Part shown: positions 11,500-13,632 of the stretch, piece after piece
How positions within the stretch are numbered: the first letter of the stretch is position 1
Layout of the letters: each line of letters opens with the position of its first letter
Virus record (IMG/VR): IMGVR_UViG_3300028130_000021
Span: 1-27,511 of that record
Source of the DNA: a virus
Length of the DNA: 27,511 nucleotides
Reading direction: 5' to 3' (one strand)
Made by a program: the position numbers and the translations under genes
The notes under the pieces: generated by a model
Told to the model about the DNA's origin: nothing
Database searches by the model: none
What the model saw: only the letters and a program-made list of their open reading frames with translations

Positions 11500-11862
11500 G
11501 TGATGTCTCAAATGTCACACTATAAAAAAGATATAATGAAAACAGAAAATAAAGATAAAATGTTAGAAGCTTTAGATGACTGCTTAGGCATAGTATCGAC
11601 AGCAAGTATAAACGCAGGTATAAACAGAAGAACTCATTATAGATGGTTAGAAGAAGATGAAGAGTACAGACTTAAAGTACAAGACATAAAGAATTCAGCT
11701 ATAGATTTTGTAGAGTCTAAACTATTTGACTGTATTAAAAGCGAAAAAGAAACTTCTATAATATTCTACTTAAAGACTATAGGAAAGTCTAGAGGTTATG
11801 TTCCACGCCAGGAAATAGATACTGGAGACAATAAAGAATTTAGAATTGAAGTAGTAGAGTGA
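11500..11862 (+). CDS. Terminase small subunit
   Basis: 120 residues (from GTG) with a helix-turn-helix N-terminal domain: MLEALDDCLGIVSTASINAG, then INRRTHYRWLEEDEEYRLKV, then a helical oligomerisation part ending IIFYLKTIGKSRGYVPRQEID. This matches small terminases, which bind the packaging site and hand DNA to the large subunit. The start is uncertain: GTG 11500, ATG 11503, ATG 11512 or ATG 11536 (MKTENKDKML) are all in frame, and the domain begins after the last of these. Its last bases overlap the large-subunit start (GTGA). Confidence 0.85.
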   Translation: MMSQMSHYKKDIMKTENKDKMLEALDDCLGIVSTASINAGINRRTHYRWLEEDEEYRLKVQDIKNSAIDFVESKLFDCIKSEKETSIIFYLKTIGKSRGYVPRQEIDTGDNKEFRIEVVE

Positions 11863-13019
11863 GAGACTTAAAAACTAATATAGTCTGGAAGCATTTAGAA
11901 AAAAGCCAAAAGAAAATAGTAATAGAGCAGGGCGGTTCTAGAAGCGGTAAAACATATAATATTTTAATCTGGATTATATTCGGTTATTGCCTTAGAGAAA
12001 AAAACAAAGTAGTTTCTATATGTAGAAAAACTTTTCCTGCGTTAAGGACTTCAGCTATGAGAGATTTCTTTGAGATACTAAAATCTCAAGAATTATATAG
12101 TGAACAAGATCATAATAAGACAAGTCACGAATACAAGATAAACAGCAACCTAGTAGAGTTTATAAGCTTAGACTCTCCACAAAAAGTAAGAGGACGTAAA
12201 AGAGATATACTTTTTTTGAATGAAGCAAACGAGTGCACCTGGGAAGACTGGAATCAGCTCGTGTTCCGAACAGTTGGACGTATTATATTAGACTACAATC
12301 CTTCAGACGAATTTCACTGGATATACGATAAAGTAAAAGTAAGAGAAGATGCAGACTTTTATAAAACTACTTATAAAAATAATAAGTTTCTGGAGGAGTC
12401 TATAGTAAAAGAAATAGAAAGACTACAGTTTACAGACGAAAACTATTGGAGAATATATGGACTAGGAGAGGTCGGACAAAGTAAAGCTACTATATTTCAG
12501 TTTAGAGAAATAGAAAAGATACCTGACAATGCTAAGTTCGTTTCTTATGGTATGGATTTTGGCTATACTAATGATCCTACTTGCATATCAAAAATTTACT
12601 TACACGATACTAACCTTTACTGCGAAGAGGTGTTATACAGAACAGGAATGACTAATAGAGATATTCATAATGAATTACTTAGTCTAGGTATTAATAGGCG
12701 TGATGAAATCTTTGCAGACTCAGCAGAACCGAAAACTATTGACGAACTCTATAGATACGGATGGAATATAAAACCTAGTACAAAAGGAAGAGACTCAATT
12801 AACATAGGAATAGATATGTTAAAGAGATACACTATACACGTAAACAAGAAAAGTCTTAATGCTATTAAAGAATTTCGTAATTATAAATGGAAAGAAGACA
12901 AGAACGGAAATATACTTAATCAACCTGAAGATAAATTTAATCATTTTATCGACAGCCTCCGTTACGGAATTTATAACAAACTAGCCAGACCTAATTATGG
13001 AAAGTACGCAATCAGGTAA
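11859..13019 (+). CDS. terL: Terminase large subunit
   Basis: 386-residue packaging motor and nuclease of the Terminase_3/PBSX type. ATPase domain: Walker A GGSRSGKT (25-32), a strand VVSICRKTFPALRTSAMRDF, and Walker B DILFLNEAN (about 115-123, with NE as in this family). Nuclease domain (RNase H fold): YGMDFGYTNDPT (about 229-240), IFADSAEPKTIDEL (about 283-296) and FNHFIDSLRYG near the C terminus, giving the three metal-binding Asp. It cuts concatemers and pumps DNA through the portal. The start is GTG at 11859, overlapping the small-subunit stop by 4 bp. The length is slightly short but complete for the family. Confidence 0.95.
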   Translation: MRDLKTNIVWKHLEKSQKKIVIEQGGSRSGKTYNILIWIIFGYCLREKNKVVSICRKTFPALRTSAMRDFFEILKSQELYSEQDHNKTSHEYKINSNLVEFISLDSPQKVRGRKRDILFLNEANECTWEDWNQLVFRTVGRIILDYNPSDEFHWIYDKVKVREDADFYKTTYKNNKFLEESIVKEIERLQFTDENYWRIYGLGEVGQSKATIFQFREIEKIPDNAKFVSYGMDFGYTNDPTCISKIYLHDTNLYCEEVLYRTGMTNRDIHNELLSLGINRRDEIFADSAEPKTIDELYRYGWNIKPSTKGRDSINIGIDMLKRYTIHVNKKSLNAIKEFRNYKWKEDKNGNILNQPEDKFNHFIDSLRYGIYNKLARPNYGKYAIR

Positions 13020-13122
13020 GACTTGTAGGTTTTGTAAAATAGTAATGACTCCTACTGGTTCACTACAAAATGGTTTTTATTTCTACTGTTCTAAATGTGG
13101 AAAAGTAGAGTTCTGGAAATAA
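12997..13122 (+). CDS. 41-residue zinc-ribbon peptide
   Basis: MESTQSGKTCRFCKIVMTP... with two Cys pairs, CRFC and CSKC, about 18 residues apart, giving a typical four-Cys zinc ribbon. It begins 23 bp inside the end of the terminase gene and stops 5 bp before the convergent tRNA gene. It probably binds nucleic acid or a protein partner. Function unknown. Confidence 0.65.
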   Translation: MESTQSGKTCRFCKIVMTPTGSLQNGFYFYCSKCGKVEFWK

Positions 13123-13126
13123 GTAG

Positions 13127-13199
13127 ATGCGAGAGTAGGATTCGAACCTACGACCTTTGGGTTATGAGCCCAACGAGCTGACCTCTGCTCCACCTCGCA
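13127..13199 (-). tRNA. tRNA-Met (CAT), initiator-like
   Basis: Complete cloverleaf on the minus strand: acceptor TGCGAGG/TCTCGCA, T8-G9, D stem GAGC/GCTC with an 8-nt loop, anticodon stem TTGGG/CCCAA with loop CTCATAA (anticodon CAT), variable loop AGGTC, T stem GTAGG/CCTAC with loop TTCGAAT. The three stacked G-C pairs next to the anticodon loop and the A11-T24 pair in the D stem are initiator tRNA traits, and the 5' half from GGTGGAGCAG to CTCATAACCC resembles bacterial tRNA-fMet. The first pair is T1-A72 rather than the usual C1xA72 mismatch. The base after A72 is T, and no CCA is encoded. Confidence 0.9.
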
Positions 13200-13205
13200 A
13201 TTAAT

Positions 13206-13418
13206 CTATTTTAAATTTTTGTCTAGTAATTTTTTAGCTTCTACAACTTGTAATAAAAATCTTTTTAGGTTATAATTAGTTATTGCATCTGCAGCACCGT
13301 TTAAGTCGTTTTCGTACTCTATATAATTAGCAAACAAATTATACCTGTATTCCAATAAGTCATTATCATTTTCTGTTAATAATAATTTAAAGTGAGATAA
13401 TGCTTCTTTGTCTGACAT
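13206..13418 (-). CDS. Small acidic hypothetical protein, antisense island
   Basis: 70 residues, the only likely protein gene on the minus strand. Composition is protein-like (helical, Leu/Asn/Asp/Glu-rich: LSHFKLLLTENDND, FANYIEYENDL, FLLQVVEAKKLL). Its stop lies 6 bp before the tRNA on the same strand, suggesting one transcript. The reading frame stays open for 23 further codons upstream of the ATG (to 13487) and still looks coding (ETFETLNQDYTEQGKADLID), but that stretch has no ATG, GTG or TTG start. The gene may be N-terminally truncated, or start at ATA/ATT. No family recognised. Confidence 0.55.
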   Translation of the reverse strand: MSDKEALSHFKLLLTENDNDLLEYRYNLFANYIEYENDLNGAADAITNYNLKRFLLQVVEAKKLLDKNLK

Positions 13419-13632
13419 AATAAAATCTATTAAATCAGCTTTTCCTTGTTCTGTGTAATCTTGGTTTAATGTTTCGAAAGTTTCTATGTTTTAGTTATGT
13501 GCCTTATGGCTTATTATTTATACTGCAATTATAATATCTTAATACGAACAATAAATTCGTTTTATATATTATTTGGAAATGTAGATAACTTTTTGTAACT
13601 TTATAATGTTGTTAAAGTAAAACTCTCAAAAT
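13419..13632. other. Divergent intergenic region
   Basis: 214 bp between the minus-strand island and the + strand small-gene run. The first ~70 bp continue the minus-strand open frame. It also holds an inverted repeat ACGAA (13544-13548)/TTCGT (13556-13560) with a 7-nt loop, a minus-strand weak -7 match (TATAATTG, complement of 13526-13533), and a + strand promoter candidate at 13572-13603. No ORF otherwise. Confidence 0.6.
13572..13603 (+). promoter_or_regulatory. Bacteroidota-type promoter candidate
   Basis: TTTG at 13572-13575, a 20-bp gap, then TAACTTTA at 13596-13603. The spacing matches the Bacteroidota -33/-7 promoter and only the last base of TAnnTTTG differs. It would drive the small-gene run beginning at 13633. 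Confidence 0.45.

Follow-up and report, generated by a model that had tools for sequence, protein, structure and literature searches.

The window, by which we mean the whole 27,511-base virus record analysed here, carries on its minus strand a tRNA-Met (CAU) gene at 13127–13199 that has the body of an initiator tRNA and an acceptor end closed by a U1-A72 pair. The gene is the 3′ part of a cassette that, judging from sequence comparisons, moved between phages, and the U1-A72 pair is in excess among phage initiator-type tRNAs; both the mobile cassette and this excess go beyond the first-pass annotation of this DNA. We give a probability of roughly 45% to the reading that this is an initiator-derived tRNA-Met whose re-paired end would be partly competent for EF-Tu, so that it could take part in elongation as well as in initiation.

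An initiator body with an acceptor end foreign to the host phylum

The tRNA is a real gene. ARAGORN returned a single tRNA-Met(CAT) at 13126–13199 on the minus strand (it counts one base beyond position 73), and the Rfam family RF00005 matched 13127–13199 on the same strand, scoring 66.7 bits where the gathering score is 29 (E 1e-12), far above chance. Written 5′ to 3′ the tRNA reads TGCGAGG TG GAGC AGAGGTCA GCTC G TTGGG CTCATAA CCCAA AGGTC GTAGG TTCGAAT CCTAC TCTCGCA T, and folding it gave a full cloverleaf with all four stems fully paired. Directly 3′ of position 73 lies CTA, not CCA. ARAGORN and Rfam found no further RNA gene in the record, and the tRNA and a 70-aa ORF lie together on the minus strand, surrounded by plus-strand genes. 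The first-pass annotation had described a minus-strand tRNA-Met, alone among RNA genes and lying in a minus-strand island, with a T-A pair at 1-72 and T as the discriminator, and on all these points (now written U1-A72 and U73) we agree with it.

The body of the tRNA belongs to the initiator class. In a census of bacterial genes, 4430 of 4438 initiators have A11-U24, which is absent from all 2762 elongator Met genes and all 2717 Ile(CAU) genes; the base of the anticodon stem is GGG:CCC in 3849 initiators and AGG:CCU in 522 (PMC5143459). The window tRNA has A11-U24 (R11:Y24) and GGG:CCC at G29–G31:C39–C41, the two hallmarks for which it had been called initiator-like. Its whole sequence agrees: a TFAM-like position-weight classifier, a check that the annotation had proposed, was trained on 120 Bacteroidota initiators and 34 other CAU tRNAs and gave it +55.9 bits, with the same result when positions 1, 72 and 73 were left out. 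This groups it with the initiators (+22.9 bits or more) and not with the elongators (−34.1 bits or less), a range that is slightly flattering because the training sequences were scored without leave-one-out. The C11-G24 pair of elongator Met and lysidine-type Ile(CAU) tRNAs is absent. At the acceptor end, by contrast with the body, the initiator features are missing: 1:72 is paired, as in elongators, and position 73 is U instead of A. In the same census 98.6% of bacterial initiators have no Watson-Crick pair at 1:72, and U1-A72 occurs in 63 of the 4438 (1.4%) and in only 3 elongators (PMC5143459).

The host is probably a bacterium of the Bacteroidota, since the best relatives of the terminase large subunit (TerL) in genomes are mainly from this phylum, and its closest counterparts in annotated phages, at 38% identity, are from a faecal phage contig and from phages of Flavobacterium psychrophilum. 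Besides TerL, protein matches in the record include a DnaB-like helicase, exonuclease VIII, an amidase, a holin, a tail fibre and a tape-measure protein. We searched Bacteroidota genomes with a covariance model of initiator tRNAs and read the 120 initiators mentioned above, mostly one per genome. Positions 1 and 72 were CxU in 70, CxC in 27, UxU in 12 and CxA in 11, that is, mismatched in 120 of 120 and paired in none; A73 was present in all 120. The U1-A72/U73 end is therefore foreign to the host phylum. The annotation was thus right to call the end atypical, and U1-A72 is not a family trait of the host; its premise that C1xA72 is the normal state did not hold, and the E. coli CxA rule is inapplicable to Bacteroidota initiators. 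It had also pointed out the missing CCA, which stands, and such an absence is ordinary in this phylum (10 of the 120 encode CCA), as previously reported (PMC5143459). The CCA of the phage tRNA would come from the host enzyme.

The U1-A72 state among viral initiator-type tRNAs

Initiator-type tRNAs are common in phages, contrary to the earlier statement that initiators are a rarity among phage tRNAs. IMG/VR was scanned with two patterns, both with positions 1 and 72 left free, which gave at least 165 unique, well-paired viral initiator-type tRNAs. Such tRNAs were also found in 104 phage records. Among the matches listed, U1-A72 was present in 27 of the 165 (16%) compared with 1.4% in the bacterial census (Fisher p <1e-9 in each scan), a comparison in which the viral sequences are not phylogenetically independent and in which some contigs may include host DNA flanking a prophage, an admixture that would weaken the excess. 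U1-A72 is thus a phage trait, as a minority state. It was accompanied by a discriminator other than A73 in 8 of 27 tRNAs, as opposed to 8 of 138 with other 1:72 states (p 0.001, among the viral matches listed). In the second scan, 38 of 81 viral tRNAs (about 43–47%, matches listed) had an anticodon stem unlike any in the published set of initiators. An association between a paired 1:72 and loss of the three G-C pairs (any kind of 1:72 pair, unfiltered: p 0.018) is not claimed here, because it fell to p 0.22 for U1-A72 once bad parses were filtered out. A degenerate-pattern scan of IMG/VR found no near copies of the window tRNA.

Isolated phages also carry U1-A72 initiator-type tRNAs, some of them with U73: CcrColossus, Acinetobacter phage MD-2021a, Kaldavass, cr60_1, Slicko01 and DSS3P8, which span several host phyla. 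We observed that the initiator-type tRNA-Met genes of CcrColossus, MD-2021a, Kaldavass, nt-1 and DSS3P8 (L394, L397, L402, L392 and L405), which have U1-A72, stems unseen in bacterial initiators, or both, are annotated as plain tRNA-Met or not at all. The tRNA-Met of Rhodobacter phage RcXuper (L398, 401–476) has an apparent extra base 5′ of the D stem (TGGTAGCAG), which shifts the usual initiator numbering.

The genes around these tRNAs were sampled as well. Several unrelated phages (L399, L401, L395, L224) have an initiator-type tRNA-Met near terL, and adjacency in cr60_1, BI-TP1 and Elanor had suggested a general rule. This was not borne out: among 150 neighbouring genes sampled, terL was not visibly commoner beside the tRNA than 3–5 genes away. 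HNH endonucleases were the commonest neighbours in that sample.

A cassette beside terL

In the window, the tRNA is the last element of a cassette of ~435 bp (13124–13559, minus strand) made up, in this order, of a leader, the 70-aa ORF (ORF70) and the tRNA, its limits being those of the homology shared with phages whose TerL is ~40% identical. Relative to close relatives (TerL 84–95% identical), 13121–13570 is an insertion, and in six of them (L126, L127, L130–L133) the cassette is absent and flank is joined straight to flank. TerL itself is encoded at 11859–13019 on the plus strand and neighbours the cassette in both phage lineages.

A search with ORF70 recovered 13 loci, and in 13 of 13 a tRNA-Met lay just downstream. 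One of these loci, L202, is nearly identical to the window, and several of the rest are closely alike. In the distant phages L206–L214, ORF70 and the tRNA follow directly after terL in the orientation opposite to that of the window. There ORF70 is ~84% identical to that of the window, compared with ~40% for TerL and 31–57% for most other shared genes. The disparity in identity, the shared slot and the reversed orientation together indicate, at the level of sequence comparison, horizontal movement of the cassette between phages as a unit. Every cassette tRNA has U1-A72 and A11-U24. The remaining features vary: GGG:CCC with U73 in the window, L202 and L205; AGG:CCU with A73 in L206–L214; AGU:ACU with U73 in L203, L204 and L134. 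Differences between cassette tRNAs within stems are compensated (G7-U66 / U7-A66 and C13-G22 / A13-U22). The AGU:ACU tRNA was also found in phages L221, L224, L227 and L229, in which ORF70 was not detected.

ORF70 (13206–13418, minus strand) encodes a protein of 70 aa predicted to be all-helical, and its stop codon lies 6 nt before the tRNA. The coding signal is confined to its own frame, which shows 360 synonymous and 235 non-synonymous codon differences, compared with 67:538 and 55:536 in the other two frames. The helices are confidently predicted (pLDDT 90). Neither Pfam nor PHROG offered a family for the protein, no viral fold match fell below E 1.4, and neither the 70-aa ORF nor its 94-aa version had relatives in GTDB genomes or INPHARED phages. 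That longer version, with a non-AUG start, was ruled out and the 75 nt directly upstream of the ATG (13419–13493, minus strand) were treated as a leader, because substitutions there show no frame preference. The leader is more conserved than the ORF and hardly varies between phages that share most of their other genes at 31–57% identity; folding found no strong structure in it. Further upstream, the conserved stretch 13494–13559 (minus strand; CGAATTTATTGTTCG...TATAATTG, in relatives TATGTTTG) resembles a Bacteroidota promoter and is a putative promoter of the cassette.

The slot after terL looks like an insertion hotspot. In two close relatives (L124, 7261–7830; L125, 7250–7800) it is occupied by a different ORF of 89–91 aa, after which comes conserved non-coding sequence (TAGACTCGAATATCTA...) that ends in a T-rich, terminator-like hairpin. 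In the window, on the terL side of the cassette, a 41-aa ORF with a zinc-ribbon-like CxxC...CxxC pattern (12997–13122, plus strand) overlaps the 3′ end of terL; it is 95% identical in L205 and was not detected in L203, where the cassette directly abuts terL.

Possible roles of the phage tRNA

Mutants of the E. coli initiator described by Seong and RajBhandary in 1987 and by Varshney et al. in 1991 are said to act as elongators or in both steps, and the single change of C1 to U1 in the 1987 work reportedly created U1-A72. The phage tRNA resembles them in having an initiator body from which the 1:72 mismatch has been removed, and differs in being natural, phage-encoded and U73-bearing; its own dual function would follow by analogy. 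In bacteria the role of the mismatch lies in formylation and that of the three G-C pairs in entry into the P site, and an initiator whose 1:72 is paired can function in both steps (PMC7949028). An engineered C1:G72 initiator was unable to discriminate initiation from elongation codons (PMC8576571). The single tRNA-Met of human mitochondria, with G1-U72, is partly formylated and serves both steps (PMC7949028); there too a paired 1:72 is the proposed basis of dual use, although that tRNA is organellar, has a wobble pair and is the only Met tRNA of its system. By analogy with these paired initiators, the phage tRNA could enter elongation while keeping its P-site features: a closed but weak 1:72 pair would lower formylation and admit EF-Tu, and the retained G29–31:C39–41 would preserve P-site entry. 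A dual-purpose Met-tRNA would then be made during infection and would be of use if host Met-tRNAs run short or are cut, and cassette tRNAs without the three G-C pairs would be shifted further toward elongation. More tentative is a broader proposal, that U1-A72 initiator-derived dual tRNAs, some of them with pyrimidine 73 and a changed anticodon stem, form a widespread phage class which, in Bacteroidota phages, moves with a dedicated small protein, ORF70, that may act on this tRNA or share its target.

Several points weigh against a role in both steps. G29–31:C39–41 is intact in the window copy, U1-A72 is present in 63 bacterial initiators, where the tRNA presumably initiates, and such a weak terminal pair may still be formylated. 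Moreover, in some phages the initiator-type tRNA is accompanied by an ordinary elongator tRNA-Met, which disfavours a need for another elongator. In the filtered viral set U1-A72 shows no significant association with loss of the three G-C pairs (p 0.22), and U73 may weaken charging by MetRS. The main rival is a spare tRNA-fMet, whose U1-A72 would fray enough for formylation and which would raise initiation capacity or replace host tRNA-fMet cut by VapC-like defences. It is nearly as likely as dual use, given that the U1-A72 pair is a weak one and that a few bacterial initiators tolerate it. A11-U24, the three G-C pairs and the clear verdict of the classifier suit it, as does the AGG:CCU of L206–L214, a known initiator variant (522 genes, PMC5143459). 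PMC10264068 cites cleavage of tRNA-fMet by VapC, although in that one survey phages generally avoid encoding tRNA-fMet where it is the VapC target. Against a spare initiator, U1-A72 and U73 lie within the region read by the formyltransferase, 1:72 is never paired in the host group, and the three G-C pairs are gone in some cassette relatives. Provision of tRNAs by phages against tRNA-cleaving defence is known, as when the tRNA-Tyr of T5 counters the tRNA-cleaving retron-Eco7 (PMC11555353), and it is reasonable to suppose that such a supply would benefit the phage whether its tRNA initiates only or serves both steps. The likeness is that the phage brings its own tRNA; the difference is that T5 tRNA-Tyr has a named defence system, retron-Eco7, as its counterpart.

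That the tRNA is drifting under relaxed constraint, in a cassette kept alive by ORF70, seems improbable. The share of viral initiator-type tRNAs with unusual anticodon stems (about 43–47% in one scan, matches listed), the unusual U73 and the lower stability of one phage's tRNAs relative to those of its host (PMC12482277) would fit such drift, but the four stems are fully paired, the differences between cassette tRNAs are compensated, and tRNA and ORF70 occur together in 13 of 13 loci. tRNA genes are common targets of phage integration, and the gene could in principle be an attachment-site remnant from integration at a host tRNA-fMet gene. We rejected this as very improbable: no integrase was found among the ~30 window proteins scanned, and the tRNA is complete, is joined to ORF70 in the genome interior beside terL, and has an acceptor end unlike that of host initiators.

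Among the closest known systems is the U1-A72 minority of bacterial tRNA-fMet, with which the phage tRNA shares A11-U24, GGG:CCC, CAU and U1-A72 (Ardell and Hou 2016, PMC5143459). Unlike them, it is phage-borne, has U73, lacks an encoded CCA and belongs to a mobile ORF and tRNA cassette, and its host phylum is without U1-A72. The distinction between initiators and elongators was established on engineered mutants, and phages appear to hold many natural counterparts, at ~10x the frequency of bacterial genomes among the viral matches listed, so the contributions of 1:72, position 73 and the three G-C pairs could be tested on natural variants. A tRNA and ORF cassette that entered distant phages at the same place would, in addition, offer a handle on why phages carry a Met tRNA.
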